Shown here: piece by piece, positions 2,474-31,196 of the stretch
Layout of the letters: every line of letters begins with the position of its first letter
Position numbering within the stretch: the first letter of the stretch is position 1
Assembly (NCBI GenBank): GCA_023379435.1
Contig: JAMCUH010000048.1
Location: 1-43,674, forward strand
Origin: Thermoplasmatota archaeon
GTDB lineage: Archaea > Thermoplasmatota > Thermoplasmata > Thermoplasmatales > Thermoplasmataceae
DNA length: 43,674 bases
Direction of reading: 5' to 3'
Program-made: the position numbers and the translations under genes
The notes under the pieces: model-generated
What the model was told of the DNA's origin: nothing
Databases searched by the model: none
The model's input: the letters and a program-made list of their open reading frames with translations, nothing else

Positions 2474-5400
2474 CTAGGCCTTCAGTAGCTCCATCAGACT
2501 GAGACATTTTTTCACGTAGCTGCCGCAATCAAGCTTTGTAAATATATCCAGTGCCTGAGTCACGTTTTTGGACCCGTTTTTCCAGTCTCCAACCTTATGG
2601 TACATCTTTGCCAGCTCCAGCGATGATTCAGCATATTTTAACAGTAAACCGGATGATTTAAAGTAGGAGACAACCTTCTTCATTTTTTCTATTGCATTTT
2701 TTATTTCCCCAAAGTAAAGTTCGTAACTGGCTTCTGCCTTGTCCATGAAACACTTGATCCATTTTTCATCAAATTTTGACGAGTAATCTCTGAGATATGA
2801 AAGATATTCTTCTGCCTTCTTTCTGTTACCTTGAATAGAATATATATCTACAGCTGTGCTTGGAAGCATAACTGCAGCTTGGATCAGATCAATGGTTATT
2901 GCTGTTTTCCTTATATAATCCATCGTTTCTTCTATGTAATCTTCAGCCTTTTCAGGTTTGTTCAATTCCAGATAAACCCTTGGAATTATATCTTTGGCGT
3001 ATCCTGTAATTTGCCTGGAGATTGTTTTTAGCCTTTGTCGGAGATCATCAGTGTCATTCTCATTTGCACCCCGGTAAAGTGACTTTGTTACTTCGAAAAT
3101 TAGAACCATGGTCCTCGCCTGAAATACCAGATCATTGTCCTTTTCCTCAGAAACCAGTAGCTCATTCTTATCAATAAGTGCCTGAGCTTCATCCCACCGC
3201 CCTGATTCCAACATAACTGAACAAACATATTCCGATATGTAAAAAGACCCATAGAGAGCCCCCATATTTTTCCCGTACAATTCCAGGCCTTTGGTGAATA
3301 TTTTGTCCCCTGCAAGCAGATCCATTTTCAATGTAGTTACAAAGTCACCATAAAAGTCGTAGAATATAGGTCCGGTCGCCCTATTAAGGTTAAAGGATTC
3401 CTCCGTCTCTTCACTGAAATCGCTTACGTACTTTTCAAAGTCGCTTGCTTCGAAAATGCACCAATCTATATCCTCCTGAGACCTTATTTCCCTCAGGAGA
3501 GTTCCTCCAAACAGATCGTAATATAAGATATACTTCCGTTCAACATTATGCGTCTTGGTAAATTCCCTTATCCACAGATCAAATTTCTTTGCCTCATCCA
3601 GTTTGTTCTCATCCCAAAACCTGTAAACAATCGAGCCCGCAATGGAAAGTATGATGTTTTCAAGTGATTCATTGTTCTTATTTGCTTCAATGAATTTTAT
3701 GGCCCTCTCAAGAACATTTCCAGATCTTATCTGCAGTACACCTACTCTCAGCATCCTTGACTGTCCGTAAAGGTCTTCAATCTTTTCAAATTCCCTGATA
3801 CCTCGGTTCCAGTAGTCTTCGAATCCATTGACTAATATAAAGGCCCCCATCAGACATATTTTATAACAGATTTCAGCTATATCCTTGGAGTATTTTTTCT
3901 CATTCCCCTGCTTCTGCATCTTACCAAGAATTTCATAAGCTTCAGAATATTCCTGAAGCGCCTTTTCATATTCATATGACTGAAACCATGAATCGCCTAT
4001 TTTGATCAGGTAAGGTACTGCTCTCTCAGGCAGACCCCCGTGTATAAAATGACCTGCAATATCACTGATGGACGAGGAATCAGAATGGTCTGTGTTTTTC
4101 TCCAGCAGTTCCGCTATTTTCTGATGCAGTCTCCTCTTTTTCAGGAGACTGAACTGGTCAAAGAAGTAGTAATAAACCTGGGGATTTGGAAAGAATAGCT
4201 TTATCCTTCCCATCTCGGTTTCTCTTTCACCGAGCAGATCCTTCTGTATCAGCTTCTCAAGAGAATCGTAAAATTTTTCTGAAGTGTCCCCCATGAGCTC
4301 TGAAAGAATATCAACATCAAACTCCATTCCTATTACGGATGCGTTGGCCATGATATTCGTGCTGTAATCATCTATACCTGACAGTCTTTCCCTTATTATT
4401 CCCACAAGGGAGCCGGGTATGCCGGCGTTGTCTATCGGTTTTCTGTCCCAGCTCCCGCTGCTGCTTTTGAAAATGATCTTTTTCTCTATGAGGTATTTCA
4501 GAACCTCCTCTATATATAAGGGGTTTCCGGCAGTTCTGTTGAAAATAAAGTCAAGGAACTCATCCGAAATATTTTTCAGGGGCTCCGTCAGATACAGTGA
4601 GATGAACTTTCTCGTGTTCTCCCTGTCAAGAGGGTGGAGATTTATCTGTCTGAATCTCCTTCCAGCAAGAAGGCCTTCCACTGCACCTGAAGACTGGGAG
4701 TCAGGCACATTCCCTATTGTAACAATGAGGAGGATCCGTGAGTTATCTATTGTATCTGATACGACCTTAAGTATGGAAACGGAGGTTGAATCTGCATAGT
4801 GGGCATCCTCCACTATTATGCACATGGGATTCTCTGCTGCCATGTTGTTGATTATTGATGCTGTGCCATCCTGGAATCTTGCCTTCAGAACTTCAGGGTC
4901 CTGACTGGCTGGCTGTATTATCTTGCCAAGTTTACCCTCAAGGTCAGGAAGCAGTTTCACAGCAACATCAGCGTAATCACCGCATATCTTGTATATCAAC
5001 TGCTGCGGCGCCATGTAGAGGTATTCCCTCATAACCTCAGTGAATACGAAATGCGGAGTGTTTCTCCTGTTATCCCTGCATTTCACCGTTATGGTTCTCA
5101 TTCCTCTCAGAACAGTGTAATCTCTTATTTCCGAGGCTATCCTTGTCTTTCCCACACCAGTGTCTCCGGATATTATTACAGATTTTCCAATGCCCATAAC
5201 TGCATTATCCGCGAGATTTTTCAGCTCTTCTATCTGCTCATCCAGACCAACCGGAGAATTCCTGTAATCGCTGATCAATAGAGTTCCTGATGTTTTTGCA
5301 GCTTTTCTTTCCTCTGTCACGGATTCTCTTGATTTTTCAGCAGAGGAAATTGTTGCCCTGACTGCTTTAAGTGCCTGTGAGAGTTCCTCTGCGCTGTTAT

Positions 5401-6184
5401 ACCTTTCATCAGGGTTCTTGTTAAGGAGTTTCATAACAATGCTGTCTATCTGTTGCGGCACCAGGTGATTCAACTTGCTAGGCGGAAGAGGGTGATCATG
5501 AATGTGGCTGTATATTAATTTCAGGGAATCCTCTGATCTGAATGGTGGCGACCCTGTGAGCATCTGGTATAGAACGCATCCGATGGAATACAGATCCGAT
5601 CTTGCATCCGCCTTTTTACCAAGTGCACTCTCAGGAGCCAGATAAGCCGGTGTTCCAACAATGGTTCCCGCATGTGTCAGGCCCGGGCTGTCAAACGACT
5701 TTGCAAGGCCAAAATCCATAAGCTTTGGATTTCCGTTGCCCGAAATCATGATGTTTTCCGGTTTTATGTCACGGTGAAGGATGCCGTTATCATGGGCATA
5801 CTGAAGCGCATCGCATATCTTCAGCGTTATTTCTATTGCCTCCTGAACAGATAATTTTCCGCCATGATTGTTCACGTAACTGTCGAGGCTCTGCCCGTCA
5901 ACGTATTCTATGACCATGATAAATCTGTCCCCTTCCTTGATCAGATCATAGATGGAGACAATATTTGTGTGTGATAATTTGGCTGTTGTCTGCGCTTCCC
6001 TCATCAATCTGGAAAACGTTTCATTATCCAGGGAATCTCCCTTGATCAGCTTAACTGCAACTATCCTCCCAAGACTGTTATCCTTGCATTTAAACACTAT
6101 TCCCTTCCCGCCCTCACCGAGCTTCTTTATCACAGAGTATCTGCCATTCTGGAGGGAGGTGATATTATCGTAGCTTTCCGACAC
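2474..6184 (-). CDS. Hanks-type Ser/Thr protein kinase fused to AAA/STAND-like ATPase and TPR-like helical C-terminus (PknK-like architecture)
   Basis: GEGGKGIVF glycine loop, VAVKLIK, HRDIKPENIMI, DFGLAKS, GTPAYLAPE; P-loop ISGDTGVGKTRIA, Walker B-like CIIVEDAHYAD; long helical C-terminal region. Confidence 0.92.
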   Translation of the reverse strand: MSESYDNITSLQNGRYSVIKKLGEGGKGIVFKCKDNSLGRIVAVKLIKGDSLDNETFSRLMREAQTTAKLSHTNIVSIYDLIKEGDRFIMVIEYVDGQSLDSYVNNHGGKLSVQEAIEITLKICDALQYAHDNGILHRDIKPENIMISGNGNPKLMDFGLAKSFDSPGLTHAGTIVGTPAYLAPESALGKKADARSDLYSIGCVLYQMLTGSPPFRSEDSLKLIYSHIHDHPLPPSKLNHLVPQQIDSIVMKLLNKNPDERYNSAEELSQALKAVRATISSAEKSRESVTEERKAAKTSGTLLISDYRNSPVGLDEQIEELKNLADNAVMGIGKSVIISGDTGVGKTRIASEIRDYTVLRGMRTITVKCRDNRRNTPHFVFTEVMREYLYMAPQQLIYKICGDYADVAVKLLPDLEGKLGKIIQPASQDPEVLKARFQDGTASIINNMAAENPMCIIVEDAHYADSTSVSILKVVSDTIDNSRILLIVTIGNVPDSQSSGAVEGLLAGRRFRQINLHPLDRENTRKFISLYLTEPLKNISDEFLDFIFNRTAGNPLYIEEVLKYLIEKKIIFKSSSGSWDRKPIDNAGIPGSLVGIIRERLSGIDDYSTNIMANASVIGMEFDVDILSELMGDTSEKFYDSLEKLIQKDLLGERETEMGRIKLFFPNPQVYYYFFDQFSLLKKRRLHQKIAELLEKNTDHSDSSSISDIAGHFIHGGLPERAVPYLIKIGDSWFQSYEYEKALQEYSEAYEILGKMQKQGNEKKYSKDIAEICYKICLMGAFILVNGFEDYWNRGIREFEKIEDLYGQSRMLRVGVLQIRSGNVLERAIKFIEANKNNESLENIILSIAGSIVYRFWDENKLDEAKKFDLWIREFTKTHNVERKYILYYDLFGGTLLREIRSQEDIDWCIFEASDFEKYVSDFSEETEESFNLNRATGPIFYDFYGDFVTTLKMDLLAGDKIFTKGLELYGKNMGALYGSFYISEYVCSVMLESGRWDEAQALIDKNELLVSEEKDNDLVFQARTMVLIFEVTKSLYRGANENDTDDLRQRLKTISRQITGYAKDIIPRVYLELNKPEKAEDYIEETMDYIRKTAITIDLIQAAVMLPSTAVDIYSIQGNRKKAEEYLSYLRDYSSKFDEKWIKCFMDKAEASYELYFGEIKNAIEKMKKVVSYFKSSGLLLKYAESSLELAKMYHKVGDWKNGSKNVTQALDIFTKLDCGSYVKKCLSLMELLKA

Positions 6185-24715: not shown

Positions 24716-25336
24716 ATGTTTTGGAAAAAGAAAAATGGAGATGATCCGAATATTGACGATGAGGAATACCGTACTGAGCAGGCATATCCAGCAAAGATTT
24801 GTCCGCTCTGCTCCAGGTCATACAGTGACGACTCTGTATTCTGTAAATATGACGGGCAAAGGCTCACCATATTGAATATTAAGATACCGGAAATTCTTGA
24901 GCCCGGTGAGATGAAATGCCCGAAATGCGGCAACACTGTCAAGGCAAGGGAGGATGGCTCCTGTCCGGTCTGCGGTGAGCAGTTGGTAGACGTTTCCAAG
25001 TTGGGAAAGAAGAAATCCGTAACACTCTTTATCGATCACCTCTATCCCATAACCATAGACCAGTTTCCCTATGTTTTTGGAAGAAAGGATGTGGCCAGGC
25101 TCCTCTCTTCAGAATATATCAATCCATCTCACATTGAATTTAATTTCAACGGTTCAAAGCTCATGGTCAAGGATGTTAAATCCCTTAACGGCTCCAAGGT
25201 CAATGAGCTGATAATAGGAATGAAGGGAAAGAGCTTCGGGGAATTTGAGGTCAAGAATGGTGATACCATAGAACTTGGTCTTAACGGATCCAACAAGGGC
25301 GAGATACGAATGAGAGTGAAGATCAATGATACGTGA
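24716..25336 (+). CDS. Zinc-ribbon and FHA-domain protein
   Basis: CPLCSRSYSDDSVFCKYDG, CPKCGNTVKAREDGSCPVCG, then FGRKD...SHIEFNFNGSKLMVKDVKSLNGSKVN (FHA-like). Confidence 0.82.
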   Translation: MFWKKKNGDDPNIDDEEYRTEQAYPAKICPLCSRSYSDDSVFCKYDGQRLTILNIKIPEILEPGEMKCPKCGNTVKAREDGSCPVCGEQLVDVSKLGKKKSVTLFIDHLYPITIDQFPYVFGRKDVARLLSSEYINPSHIEFNFNGSKLMVKDVKSLNGSKVNELIIGMKGKSFGEFEVKNGDTIELGLNGSNKGEIRMRVKINDT

Positions 25337-25379
25337 AAATCCCTTTGAAGGGGAAATCAACACCAAAAGGAAGTGAGGA

Positions 25380-28004
25380 ATGGACAGGGGGTCCATCAGA
25401 AAGACGCTGTTCTATGCGGCATTCATTTTTGTTGTTGCAGTTATATTGCTGTACATCTCAGGCTATTATACGGGTTTCAATCCGCTGTCATACTTTGTCC
25501 CGTACTCTCTCGTAATAACTGCCAGCATCATACTTGTTTTTTCAGTATGGTTCGTCCTCATACTTGTCGGGAACAGGAGATATCCCGATGAGAATAAGGC
25601 AAAACCATCCACAGGATCCCTTCTGATGCTTGTTTTTTTCATGTTTGTGACTTCGTTTGTCTCCATTTACTATGTGATTTCAAAAATAGGCAGGCCCTGG
25701 GATCTAACAGTGCTCATACCGCTGGTGCCTCTTTATACATACAGCGATTTCCGGAGAAGAAAGACTAAACTCAGGAAGAATGCAAGGAAGAAAGACCCGA
25801 GAAATCCTGTTCAGGACATAGTTTCAATCCTAATGGCCGGTTCCCTGGGTTTCTTCATTTACATGGGAAAGCCATTTATACTTTACATAGCACTGCTTCT
25901 CGCAGCTCTTTCCTTCATGTCAATGGCAGGAAAGAGCCGGACATACTCTTCGTTCAGGTACATGTCATCAAGGATTGTAATACCATTCTCGGCAGCATTT
26001 ATGTTGACAGATTTCTCACTCTATTATGGAGCAATAAAAAGCAGCGGCATACTTCTTGTACCCATAGTTATAATTGCATTTCTGATCAGCTCTGCCATCA
26101 TCGTGACATTCAGGAGGAGGCCTCTCTTCTACTATCTTGGCATGCTTTTGATGTTTGCTACCTCTGTTCTCGGTATACTTGATTTGATGAGATACTACAG
26201 CAGCTATCCCATGTCCTTCCTTACCCTCACAGGGGTTGTGGCATATATTCTGGCACTTTCCGGTGATGATGCTATGGATGACAACCATAATATAGCCAAC
26301 TCATTCAGGCTGTTCAAAAATAGCTCTGTGTATTTTTCAGCCGTGCTGGTTGTTGTGCTATTTGGTCTTCTCTACTTCTTCAGATTTTTTGATATCAGTG
26401 TACACGGCTCTGACGGTCTGGCATATGTATCGGCCTATCTGTCTAATTCCTTCAGGTATACCATTCTGGACACCCTTGGAACAACTGCACTTCTCATTAT
26501 GGCACTTCTTGCCGTATCGGTACTCATAGGGTCGAGAAAGATAAACGTCATACTTTTTGCCCTGATGATCCTGCTGTTCGGATATGGACTGTATTCCGCT
26601 GTATCACTGAAGGATCCAGGTGTATGGGATATCAACTCCATATATGCAATCTCCATAACGGTCATTGTTGGTGCTGCAGTTTTCTATGAACCCTCATTCA
26701 GGTTCATGAGATCATACAGCTCCAGAATTTCAAGGAAGTACAGCATAAGCTACCAGATGGGCACCGCAAGGTACCTCAGGGGCAGATTCGACGTGGACAC
26801 AACTGTGGATAAAAGCAAGAATAAGGATTTCCTTGGAGCAGGCGGTTTTGCATATGTTTTCAAGGGGAAGGATACATTGACCAACCGTGATGTGGTAATA
26901 AAGGTGCCCAGGGTATTCGACGAGGAATCCAAGACAGAGAGGGAGAGAAAGCTGCACATGCAGGAGTCCGTGAGGCAGCTTTACGAGGAGAGCAAGATCC
27001 TGAGCCAGATCAGTTATCCCGGTATCGTCGGTCTTGTTGATTACTTCAAGGAAGGGGACCAGTATTACCTTGTTGAGGAATATGCAGATGGAAAGAACAT
27101 GTCTTCCTATCTGGGCGATAACATCAAAAACGGTACACCTCTTGATGAGGCAAACTCCATAAGACTTGCTCTTAGCCTTCTCTTTTCCGTCAATTACATG
27201 CACATGCATGAGATATACCACAGGGACCTCAACCCGGGAAACATAGTACTTACAAAATCGGGACCGAAGATTATAGATTTCGGCACATCGAAGAATCTTT
27301 CCATGAGAGTATCAACAGCATTTTTCACTCACAGCCAAAGAATCGGCGTTCCATGCTATCATCCCCCGGAGCTTGATATAGAGGACAAGATCAATATTTC
27401 AGCGGCTTATGACACATATTCTGTCGGGGCCCTCATATGCTCCATGCTAACCGGGCAGTTCCTGGACAGCAGTGAAATGAAAAAGAATTATGGATATGAA
27501 TACATAACGGAAGATTATTTGCAGAGGGAGATAAGGCCCAGGGCATCAGACTGGTTCTACAGAATAATAAGCAAGACGCTATCTTTCAAGGCTGATGACA
27601 GGTACCAGAGCGCATTCGAGATGATAGCCGATATCATGGGTCTCAAGGGCAATTACATAGTAACAGACATGGGATTCATATACCCCATGGAGCATGGGTC
27701 ATCCTATGATGTCATCCTCTCCTCGGAGTACAAGGTTCCACATGTTGGGTCAAACGTTGTCAGAACCAAGACGGTTGAACTTTATGAAAACGGGAAGTTT
27801 AACAATGTATCTGTGGGAAAAATAGGGGTGATAGGCATGGAAAACAACTTTAAGCTTGAAACCACCGGGAAGAGGGCATTTTATATAAAAGCAATAGGAT
27901 CATACCCGGAGAAAAGAAATGAGGTAACGCTGGTGCCAAGGGTGATTTACTCATTCAGGCAGGATTTAAGATACGCTAATTTTTCGTTCTACACAGTGAG
28001 GTAA
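25380..28004 (+). CDS. Polytopic membrane protein with C-terminal Hanks-type Ser/Thr protein kinase domain
   Basis: About 440 aa of hydrophobic segments, then LGAGGFAYVFKGKD, VVIKVPR, YHRDLNPGNIVL, KIIDFGTSK, GVPCYHPPE. Confidence 0.9.
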   Translation: MDRGSIRKTLFYAAFIFVVAVILLYISGYYTGFNPLSYFVPYSLVITASIILVFSVWFVLILVGNRRYPDENKAKPSTGSLLMLVFFMFVTSFVSIYYVISKIGRPWDLTVLIPLVPLYTYSDFRRRKTKLRKNARKKDPRNPVQDIVSILMAGSLGFFIYMGKPFILYIALLLAALSFMSMAGKSRTYSSFRYMSSRIVIPFSAAFMLTDFSLYYGAIKSSGILLVPIVIIAFLISSAIIVTFRRRPLFYYLGMLLMFATSVLGILDLMRYYSSYPMSFLTLTGVVAYILALSGDDAMDDNHNIANSFRLFKNSSVYFSAVLVVVLFGLLYFFRFFDISVHGSDGLAYVSAYLSNSFRYTILDTLGTTALLIMALLAVSVLIGSRKINVILFALMILLFGYGLYSAVSLKDPGVWDINSIYAISITVIVGAAVFYEPSFRFMRSYSSRISRKYSISYQMGTARYLRGRFDVDTTVDKSKNKDFLGAGGFAYVFKGKDTLTNRDVVIKVPRVFDEESKTERERKLHMQESVRQLYEESKILSQISYPGIVGLVDYFKEGDQYYLVEEYADGKNMSSYLGDNIKNGTPLDEANSIRLALSLLFSVNYMHMHEIYHRDLNPGNIVLTKSGPKIIDFGTSKNLSMRVSTAFFTHSQRIGVPCYHPPELDIEDKINISAAYDTYSVGALICSMLTGQFLDSSEMKKNYGYEYITEDYLQREIRPRASDWFYRIISKTLSFKADDRYQSAFEMIADIMGLKGNYIVTDMGFIYPMEHGSSYDVILSSEYKVPHVGSNVVRTKTVELYENGKFNNVSVGKIGVIGMENNFKLETTGKRAFYIKAIGSYPEKRNEVTLVPRVIYSFRQDLRYANFSFYTVR

Positions 28005-28009
28005 TAAAA

Positions 28010-28816
28010 ATGGATATTGGATCAAAAAGTATACGGGGAAAGGTCAGGGAGAGAGACGAGGACGCCATTCTTGTAATGGGGAGGCAGATAAGCTCGGAGC
28101 ATTCCAACGACGAGGCATATTTCTGCGCTCTCGCAGACGGTATGGGAGGTGGCGATGCAGGCGATATTGCCAGCAGGATTGCTCTGCAGACAATGGAGAG
28201 TATTGGATTCAAGCTCCTCTCAAGGGTTACCACTGATCCGGGAAAGATCGTTGAGGAGATCAACGATGGATACAGAAGGGCCGACAGGAAAATAGTGGAA
28301 TACAGCATGGAAAACTCCCTGAGGGAGATGGGGACAACCCTCGTGACAGCATATTACGTAAATGGCATGCTCTATGTGGGGAACATAGGGGACAGCAGGC
28401 TGCTCATATTCAACGACGGAAAGGTATCCGCCAGGACAACTGATCACTCATACGTGCAGACACTTGTTTTCTCCGGTTCCATAAAGGATTCGGAGGTTAA
28501 CACGCATCCGAGGCGAAACGAGATGACAAAGGCGCTGGGCTTCCAGGGGTTTGCACCAGACATCTATATATGGAAGATATTCAATGGCGATTCTGTTCTC
28601 CTATGCTGTGATGGGCTATGGGAGCCACTGGACTATGCCACACTTGGTGCTGCAGCAAATTCAACAATGACATCAATGGAGGCTGTTGAACAGCTGGTGA
28701 ACCTTGCCAACGAGATTGACGGAACAGATAACATCTCAGCCATAATGTTCAGGCCACGTGTAAAGACCTCTTTGGAGAAATATTCAAGGAAGCCTACAAA
28801 GGCAGCCCCTAAATGA
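28010..28816 (+). CDS. PP2C/SpoIIE-fold Ser/Thr protein phosphatase
   Basis: REDEDAILVM-like N-terminus, LADGMGGGDAGDIAS, VGNIGDSRLLIF, LCCDGLWEPL, GTDNISAIM. Confidence 0.93.
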   Translation: MDIGSKSIRGKVRERDEDAILVMGRQISSEHSNDEAYFCALADGMGGGDAGDIASRIALQTMESIGFKLLSRVTTDPGKIVEEINDGYRRADRKIVEYSMENSLREMGTTLVTAYYVNGMLYVGNIGDSRLLIFNDGKVSARTTDHSYVQTLVFSGSIKDSEVNTHPRRNEMTKALGFQGFAPDIYIWKIFNGDSVLLCCDGLWEPLDYATLGAAANSTMTSMEAVEQLVNLANEIDGTDNISAIMFRPRVKTSLEKYSRKPTKAAPK

Positions 28817-28901
28817 TGGATTCAAAATTTCCAGTTCATGTCACAGGTTTCGGATACGAGATCAGGGGAAAATTTAATACCTTGTCTGACTTTTTGTTTT
28901 A

Positions 28902-29222
28902 ATGGACTGTCCAACATTGATTTCCCAGATAAAGAACAAATACATCAAGATAGTGAAGGTTGTAGAGAACAAGGGGAGCGAAGATCTGCCCTCTCAGGAT
29001 TATCTATCAGCACAGTCGGAGTTCCTGAGGTGGTTCGAAGAAATAATAAAGAATGCCTCCGTGGAAAACGGGGAGCTTTCCATGTCTGCCAAACAGTGCA
29101 TCCTTTCCACAATAAACGAGGATGGGGAAGGAAACGGGAACCAGGAACTCATAGAAGCGCTCTCACTTTTCTCTGATAAGAGGATTCTTGAACTTTTTGG
29201 AGTGAAGATATTTTCAGACTGA
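28902..29222 (+). CDS. Small uncharacterised helical protein in kinase/phosphatase cluster
   Basis: 106-aa ORF; TATA-like TTTAATAC at 28873-28880, about 26 nt upstream of the ATG. Confidence 0.65.
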   Translation: MDCPTLISQIKNKYIKIVKVVENKGSEDLPSQDYLSAQSEFLRWFEEIIKNASVENGELSMSAKQCILSTINEDGEGNGNQELIEALSLFSDKRILELFGVKIFSD

Positions 29223-29244
29223 TTCCATATATGGAAGCGATATA

Positions 29245-29586
29245 ATGGTTACGAATCTGAACAAAAAGATATCGGATATTTTCAATCTGCTCCCGTCGGA
29301 GGAGATTTACACCGAGGCAATACGCGAGATAATGAAGGACCTCATAAAGGAGTTCATAAAGCAGGAGATCAACAGGAACCCTTCCCTTAAAAAGGCGCTT
29401 GTTGAAGCCATGAAGCAATTCATGGAGGCAAAGCTGAAGGAATACGACTCCATGGCAAAGATGGCAAAGGTATCAGCCAGCATAGGTCTGGCAATAGCGC
29501 CCAAGGATCTCAAGGACGAAGCGGTCAGGGACTTTGTTGAAACGTTCCAGAAAGAGATAGAAGATATAATAAGGAAAACTTTCTGA
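29245..29586 (+). CDS. Small uncharacterised amphipathic helical protein in kinase/phosphatase cluster
   Basis: 113-aa ORF, charged heptad-like sequence (EIMKDLIKEFIKQEINRNPSLKKALVEAMKQFMEAKLKEYD). Confidence 0.7.
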   Translation: MVTNLNKKISDIFNLLPSEEIYTEAIREIMKDLIKEFIKQEINRNPSLKKALVEAMKQFMEAKLKEYDSMAKMAKVSASIGLAIAPKDLKDEAVRDFVETFQKEIEDIIRKTF

Positions 29587-29587
29587 G

Positions 29588-30991
29588 TCAGCCCTTGAAA
29601 TCCCTTATCAGAATGCTTCTGGAGTTAAGGTCGAAGAGTGTCAGCATGGATGGATTGGGGCTGAAATTCATCATCTTCTGATAGTCCGTCTGTGACTGCC
29701 ACGTGGAGGAGTTAACATACCGAACACCACGGTAGTTACCAACTGCATGTGAATGCACATGTCCCGTGATGAATATGTCCGGGACATTTTCAATAACATG
29801 CCTGTCCTCTCTTGACGGCACGATCGGGGTCTTTCCACCGTACCTTGGAGCAAGGTGTCTCCTCCTTAATATTTCCTCTATGGCCTTTCCTATGGTTTCA
29901 AAATTTGCCCCTGGGATAAGTTCTATCATATCGTTCAATGACATACCGTGGTAAAGGAGGACCTGCTTCCCTTCAATTTCAAGGGTAAACGGATTTGGCA
30001 GTAACGTTACGTTACTGTTGAACATCTTCCTTATCTTTTCTGAAAAGACTGGCTGTGGTTCAGGGAGCCTTACCACGTCGTGGTTTCCAGGCATTATGTA
30101 CACCTTCACATCACCAGGAATTTCTGATATAAGATCAGACAGCATCTCATACTGCTCAAGCGGATTCAGAATCTCGAGATCATTCTCCTGTCCTGGATAC
30201 ACACCGATGCCATCAACCACATCGCCGCTGAGAACCATATATTTGATCTGTTTTGAATCCTCAGATGAAGACTTAATCCACTTAATCATCCTGGAGAATT
30301 CATCCTTCCTGAACGTTTTGCTTCCGACATGGATATCTGAAACGGATGCAATGTAGACCGGTTCCTTATGGGTTTCGTCAATTACCCTGAATGGAATATC
30401 AGGTCTAACGATCTCATTGGCGAATATCACCTTCTCCTTGTCACCGGATGAAACTGAACCAACAATGCCTATGACCTCATCCTCCAGTATAACCTCATCA
30501 AATCCTTTTTTTCCTTTCATCAGTATAACTGTTATGCTGTCATCGAGATCCTCTATCACTATCCTCTTGTGACCATTCTTCGTGACGGATGTTGAGGAGA
30601 CCATTCCAACAACCTTGACCTCTCCGGTGGATTTCTTTGCGGAAGATATGCTGCTTGTCCCTCTCATTGCGATGGAGGTTGTTATTATCTTGCGAAGTTT
30701 TTCATACCTGCTCACAAAATAACCTCTGAATTCTTCCACTGAACTGTCCCTCACAAGATCAGGTACGTAGATCTCAAAATCTCTCCCGCTGCTCGGTGCA
30801 GGTTTTTCCAGTATCCTGAACAGGTCTTTCTCAGATATATAACCACTATTCATGACGTCGTCCGTAAGAAGGCCGTTTATGAAGCTGCCCATATTTTTCT
30901 CCAGAATAATGTCAAGAGCTCCCGGAGACAGAAGAATGCCCTTCTGTGTGAAGAATTCAAGAATCTCAGCCTTGTCTCTATAGAGGGGCAT
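29588..30991 (-). CDS. polB: DNA polymerase D small subunit DP1 (ORF track start is 31051)
   Basis: Calcineurin-like phosphoesterase motifs SDIHVGSKTF, SGDVVDGIG, MPGNHDVVRLPEPQP, TGHVHSHAVG; upstream OB-fold-like region. Confidence 0.93.
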   Translation of the reverse strand: MPLYRDKAEILEFFTQKGILLSPGALDIILEKNMGSFINGLLTDDVMNSGYISEKDLFRILEKPAPSSGRDFEIYVPDLVRDSSVEEFRGYFVSRYEKLRKIITTSIAMRGTSSISSAKKSTGEVKVVGMVSSTSVTKNGHKRIVIEDLDDSITVILMKGKKGFDEVILEDEVIGIVGSVSSGDKEKVIFANEIVRPDIPFRVIDETHKEPVYIASVSDIHVGSKTFRKDEFSRMIKWIKSSSEDSKQIKYMVLSGDVVDGIGVYPGQENDLEILNPLEQYEMLSDLISEIPGDVKVYIMPGNHDVVRLPEPQPVFSEKIRKMFNSNVTLLPNPFTLEIEGKQVLLYHGMSLNDMIELIPGANFETIGKAIEEILRRRHLAPRYGGKTPIVPSREDRHVIENVPDIFITGHVHSHAVGNYRGVRYVNSSTWQSQTDYQKMMNFSPNPSMLTLFDLNSRSILIRDFKG

Positions 30992-31196
30992 GAACCTATC
31001 ATATCCGGATCGATTAAATCTTTTGTTGTGTTTTCTTTTTGCAATAAGCAATGTTCACATAGATAAATCAGTATGTATCACTAGTAAGAACCATTCCTGA
31101 GCATGATTGTAAACTGCATTCATGGAAGCCCTAATAATAGGATTCTGCTTTAAATTATGCCCGGTCGTCACATGAGAAATATAGTATAATAAATAA

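Follow-up and report, generated by a model that had tools for sequence, protein, structure and literature searches.

Does the genome of an uncultured, acid-loving archaeon encode, side by side, the proteins needed to write, erase and read Ser/Thr phosphorylation? The question is raised by five open reading frames (ORFs) on contig JAMCUH010000048.1 of a Thermoplasmatota archaeon (assembly GCA_023379435.1), which was analysed over a stretch of 43,674 nucleotides (the window). An initial annotation, made from the letters alone, had described these ORFs as a co-directional cluster encoding an FHA protein, a membrane kinase, a PP2C phosphatase and two small proteins, and all five were confirmed at the coordinates it gave and on one strand. 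The FHA, kinase and PP2C genes are a real, conserved module whose catalytic parts are intact, and they are probably co-transcribed. We put at roughly 0.72 the probability that, judged from sequence, they form one operon for reversible Ser/Thr phosphorylation with a writer, an eraser and a reader. The features of the locus are as follows.

24716..25336, + strand: zinc ribbon and FHA protein, 206 aa, candidate reader (Pfam, alignments, PDB profile matches).
25380..28004, + strand: Hanks kinase, 874 aa (Pfam, alignment, hydropathy, C-terminal model).
27633..28001, + strand: kinase C-terminal domain with a predicted FHA fold, or pseudo-FHA (model and PDB fold search).
28010..28816, + strand: PP2C (PPM) phosphatase, 268 aa, candidate eraser (profile scores, intact metal-binding residues).
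28902..29222, + strand: s106, a mostly helical, lineage-specific protein of 106 aa (same distribution as the kinase).
29245..29586, + strand: s113, 113 aa, outside the module (order-wide core gene).
29588..31051, - strand: homologue of the PolD small subunit (DP1), outside the module (Pfam DNA_pol_E_B and Metallophos).

The identities of the FHA, Hanks kinase and PP2C domains stand, as all three score above their Pfam cut-offs and the hidden Markov model (HMM) searches gave no failure of the kind that the initial annotation had named as counting against it. In the kinase, Pkinase (PF00069) reaches 125.8 bits against a cut-off of 31.7, the kinase domain spans residues 482–743, and K508, E537, H614-R615-D616, N621 and D633-F634-G635 are invariant in an alignment with its relatives. 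The NCBIfam PASTA-kinase equivalog NF033483 scores 117 bits, in the kinase domain only, which is far below its cut-off of 450 and therefore identifies the protein as a Hanks kinase, not a PknB-type PASTA kinase. A Pfam scan found no PASTA domain in it. In residues 1–436, ahead of the kinase domain, a simple hydropathy count gives about 12 hydrophobic peaks, with 11–14 in relatives; the polytopic membrane part first described is thus present, but with some 12 segments instead of roughly ten. Its loops are short, there is no sizeable ectodomain, and the positively charged loops would place the N-terminus and the kinase domain inside (hydropathy and charge); we infer both this topology and a role of the membrane part in sensing. 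The membrane part also diverges faster than the kinase domain, with 83% against 97% identity in the G002/G020 pair.

The 123 C-terminal residues of the kinase (about 752–874), which have no Pfam match, are predicted to be a diverged FHA-fold domain with no recognisable phosphate pocket, a point that had gone unnoticed in the initial annotation. An AlphaFold model built on a 16-sequence alignment is all-beta, with a predicted local distance difference test score (pLDDT) of 87 and a predicted template modelling score (pTM) of 0.80. In a search of the PDB for similar folds, ranks 1–25 were all FHA-domain proteins, the best matches having a probability of up to 1.00, an E-value of 1.4e-3 and template modelling scores of 0.55/0.67. 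An FHA relationship was unsupported both by hhalign against the profile of the cluster's own FHA protein and by a sequence-profile search of the PDB, so the assignment comes solely from the fold search, and the alignment of the domain contains no conserved Arg or Asn-Gly signature. Kinases with an evident C-terminal FHA domain are found in two relatives (G395 and G003), however, and these clear fusions make an FHA-fold reading natural. The fusion in G003 (L130:5896-6999, genus g3) has no adjacent PP2C in the match list.

The separate FHA protein matches Pfam FHA (PF00498) at 29.9 bits against a cut-off of 20.7, and the double zinc ribbon DZR at 28.0 bits against 27.3. In the double zinc ribbon, seven Cys residues and Asp46 do not vary among 15 members. 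Domains of this type that bind phosphothreonine carry the motifs GR, SxxH and NG (PMC1262709), and from these R123, H139 and N158-G159 are invariant in the same 15 proteins. The best profile matches in the PDB include ArnA (5a8i) and another protein that combines a zinc ribbon with an FHA domain (8s05).

The phosphatase matches PF00481 at 59.0 bits (cut-off 20.3) and PF13672 at 45.1 bits (cut-off 24), and scores 188 bits with the NCBIfam Stp1/IreP family, which is under the equivalog cut-off of 230. In an alignment with its relatives R13, D18, D43, D201 and D240 are invariant. Searches of five sampled genomes that are 91–96% complete (G010, G014, G015, G031 and G348), made for PP2C with PF13672 only, found no FHA and no PP2C other than those of the locus. 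In one relative (G456; L126:2707-3514, - strand) the PP2C gene is split over two frames, through either a frameshift or an assembly error in this metagenome-assembled genome (MAG). The genome studied here has two further large Ser/Thr kinases that join Pkinase, AAA and TPR domains. The one inside the window (2474-6184, - strand) has 1236 aa, with Pkinase (213 bits), an AAA_16 ATPase and a TPR-like C-terminus. Its paralogue, which is about as large, is encoded on another part of the genome (kinase part C1:2910-3665), and further genomes of the order have homologues of 1223–1280 aa.

In the relatives examined, the FHA, kinase and PP2C genes are contiguous wherever the contig permits. With start codons assigned mechanically as the first ATG, GTG or TTG, the gap between the FHA and kinase genes ranges from -16 to +55 bp and that between the kinase and PP2C genes from -32 to +9 bp. 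Junctions in the cluster include 4-bp stop/start overlaps in relatives, and such overlaps suggest translational coupling. Low ratios of nonsynonymous to synonymous substitution (dN/dS) indicate purifying selection on all genes tested, with values of 0.05–0.09 for the kinase, PP2C and s106 in the one pair with a usable dS (~0.25–0.4); dS was saturated in a second pair, whose ratios are qualitative only.

Of 117 genomes in the order, 18 have the full-length kinase; these belong to five uncultured genera of Thermoplasmatales, and the orthologous gene is absent from sister genera with complete genomes. In a tree of the PolD small subunit, a branch supported at 97/92 sets the five genera apart. Among 84,980 GTDB species scanned, full-length relatives of the kinase were found only in Thermoplasmata MAGs, the remaining matches being bacterial proteins that align in the kinase region. 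A lack of conserved synteny in relatives, which the initial annotation had named as counting against it, was not seen: gene order is kept in five genera, but within a single clade and not across Thermoplasmatales. Linkage has been kept while flanking genes were rearranged between genera, and vertical inheritance is the best reading of the module's history.

The two small proteins that had been placed in the cluster differ in their distribution. The gene for s106 is present in exactly the 18 genomes with the kinase, besides one weak 66-residue match in G007, which makes s106 a plausible, indeed a probable, partner of the module. Genomes in which the two genes are no longer linked still have it (G001, G010 and G456), and it stays beside the kinase gene where s113 lies elsewhere or off the contig (G451 and the second copy in G446). 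That second copy (L149, G446:C32) is a diverged kinase-PP2C-s106 set on a separate contig, and may be a duplication or a stray MAG contig. The co-occurrence of s106 with the kinase was rejected as independent evidence, since the kinase-bearing genera are monophyletic and one gain followed by retention would account for it. The model of s106 is confident (pLDDT 86), with no fold match in the PDB better than E = 1; at the sequence level it had no PDB match below E = 0.09 and no reproducible Pfam or NCBIfam match. In contrast, s113 was rejected as a member of the module, as it occurs in 103 of the 117 genomes of the order and in 50 of the 51 most complete ones. It lies a few bases from the convergent PolD small subunit gene in most genera examined, whether or not the kinase is present, and belongs to the core gene set of the order, in association with that subunit. 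The strongest purifying selection among the genes tested was seen for s113 (dN/dS 0.015 in the pair with a usable dS).

Separate FHA-kinase-PP2C clusters were found in three other lineages of the phylum, namely another family of the same order (G050, G053, G055 and G057) and two other families (G246 and G395), with HMM support for every part in G053, G246 and G395. As at the present locus, the genes for the FHA protein, kinase and PP2C are adjacent and on one strand, overlapping in G053 and near-contiguous in G395, and in G395 the FHA protein likewise has a double zinc ribbon and the kinase ends in an FHA domain. However, the kinases of these clusters have only ~24–28% identity to the one described here, which suggests recurrent assemblies of the same kind and not orthologues. 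They lack a large N-terminal membrane domain, the architecture of the FHA protein differs, and the order in G246 is FHA-PP2C-kinase. The G395 cluster (L113:2289-6360) comprises a vWA protein, the double zinc ribbon FHA protein, the kinase-FHA fusion and PP2C. Across 390 Thermoplasmatota genomes, PP2C was found in 19 of the 28 with FHA compared with 26 of the 362 others (Fisher p = 1e-13; p = 3e-7 at the level of genera), in tests that ignore phylogeny.

Taken as an operon for reversible phosphorylation, the module would work as follows. The polytopic membrane kinase would phosphorylate targets on the cytoplasmic side, probably with its own membrane domain as the sensor, and PP2C would remove the phosphates. 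The zinc-ribbon FHA protein, possibly an ArnA-like regulator, would bind a phosphorylated target or the kinase and relay the signal. The C-terminal FHA-fold domain of the kinase has probably lost phosphate binding and may serve in docking or autoregulation, and s106 would be an accessory protein or a substrate. Operation as a single pathway, phospho-reading, substrates and output are points on which we infer from the genes. A bolder version, which is speculative and rather doubtful in all its parts together, is that the locus represents an archaeal class of membrane-embedded receptor kinases, in which the 12-segment domain senses within the bilayer, the C-terminal pseudo-FHA docks the zinc-ribbon FHA effector with its altered pocket, the sole PP2C of the cell provides the balance and s106, as a new family of small proteins, modulates.

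The set of writer, eraser and reader proposed in the initial annotation is supported by the HMMs, the invariant catalytic residues and the conserved, often overlapping gene order in five genera, with phosphothreonine reading being its less certain part. Several observations weigh against it. The Ser of SxxH is Asn136 in 15 of 15 FHA proteins, and this invariant Asn in place of the canonical residue makes phosphothreonine reading less certain than first proposed, although the FHA domain keeps its GR and NG motifs; phospho-reading is, on sequence grounds, plausible but not assured. Additionally, the co-occurrence statistics take no account of shared descent, none of the neighbouring genes points to an output, and PP2C, being the only one, may not be dedicated to this kinase but also work for the two extra ones. 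The altered pocket could mean that the FHA protein is a phosphate-independent scaffold that pairs with the FHA-fold domain of the kinase, in which case the module would simply be a kinase paired with a phosphatase, plus an adaptor of structural role. This is possible though doubtful: the loss of the Ser while R123 and N158-G159 are kept, and the presence on the kinase itself of a second FHA fold devoid of phosphothreonine-binding residues, speak for it, but the invariance of R123 and N158-G159 also suggests a conserved ligand, and the pocket of ArnA, which is off consensus as well (Arg147 replaces Asn), was still judged capable of recognising phosphothreonine (PMC6509490).

It is unlikely that the kinase and PP2C are general household signalling enzymes which keep an ancestral gene order but have no pathway of their own, with PP2C acting mainly on behalf of the two AAA/TPR kinases. 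One PP2C match per genome would agree with this, as would the further large kinases, one of them in the window, and the monophyly of the clade, given which the genes may have been joined just once and then stayed frozen in place. On the other hand, the linkage outlasts rearrangement of the flanks between genera, the start/stop overlaps suggest translational coupling, and other families have clusters of this kind that are made up of different proteins. An anti-phage or conflict system is highly improbable, even though the kinase-kinase-phosphatase module KKP also joins Hanks kinases, an FHA domain and PP2C (PMC11341870). The kinase matches PADLOC models only in the generic kinase domain, PP2C matches weakly and the FHA protein and s106 not at all, and a defence reading was rejected for want of specific PADLOC support. 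Vertical inheritance and retention in five genera contrast with a patchy, mobile distribution, and the locus has one kinase, with a 12-segment membrane domain.

The proposed reversible phosphorylation operon is of a kind known in bacteria. In Mycobacterium tuberculosis, FHA genes are clustered with those of kinases and phosphatases (PMC1262709), and the PknB/PstP/Fha loci likewise encode a membrane Hanks kinase, PP2C and FHA together. The present locus differs from these in having about 12 membrane segments, no PASTA ectodomain, a C-terminal FHA-fold domain and an archaeal host. KKP resembles it in carrying a Hanks kinase, FHA and PP2C in one gene cluster (PMC11341870), but there two kinases, with CSD/FHA fusions, come after PP2C and the module is prophage-borne, whereas here there is a single kinase and a separate zinc-ribbon FHA gene.

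Among archaea, conservation of FHA proteins has been described for Crenarchaeota only, with occasional examples in other groups (PMC10470591). The system that has been studied is ArnA/ArnB with the kinases ArnC/ArnD and the phosphatase PP2A (PMC6509490, PMC7472852). Sulfolobales ArnA shares with the FHA protein described here a zinc-binding N-terminus, a C-terminal FHA domain and a setting in archaeal Ser/Thr phosphorylation. Its partners are a vWA protein and a PP2A-type phosphatase (PMC6509490, PMC7472852), whereas at the present locus the FHA gene shares a probable operon with those of a kinase and PP2C, the SxxH Ser is replaced by Asn, and no FHA/vWA pairing of the ArnA-ArnB type was found at the locus, a vWA protein occurring only in the distinct G395 cluster. 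No description of an archaeal FHA-kinase-PP2C operon was found in the open-access literature, which is weak evidence as subscription journals lay outside the scope; as far as the searched literature shows, the archaeal version is new.

Archaeal FHA phospho-signalling is known experimentally only from ArnA-type proteins of Sulfolobales, and most archaeal genomes are reported to be without FHA (PMC6509490, PMC10470591). An operon this compact, which combines a writer, an eraser and a candidate reader and appears to supply these small genomes with their sole FHA and PP2C, would offer a tractable way into eukaryote-like Ser/Thr signalling in archaea. It bears on whether such triads arise repeatedly, and on what a kinase with no ectodomain senses in extreme acid. 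What sets it apart is a receptor-like membrane domain that lacks an ectodomain, an FHA fold predicted at the C-terminus of the kinase and a changed pocket in the FHA protein.

Besides PP2C, kinase, FHA, s106 and s113/DP1, no gene is common to all cluster neighbourhoods of the relatives. A clean 'empty site' for insertion of the module upstream of s113 was sought and not found, the flanks varying among kinase-less genera. The upstream flank of the cluster is different in genera g1 and g2. In g10 (G026), g14 and g15, the cluster stands between two DNA polymerase genes, with those for a 2-hydroxyacid dehydrogenase and a family B DNA polymerase near it on the upstream side and that of the PolD small subunit on the downstream side, at the following loci.

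L046:2989-6910, L038, L044 and L045 (genera g10, g14 and g15): clusters flanked by two DNA polymerase genes.

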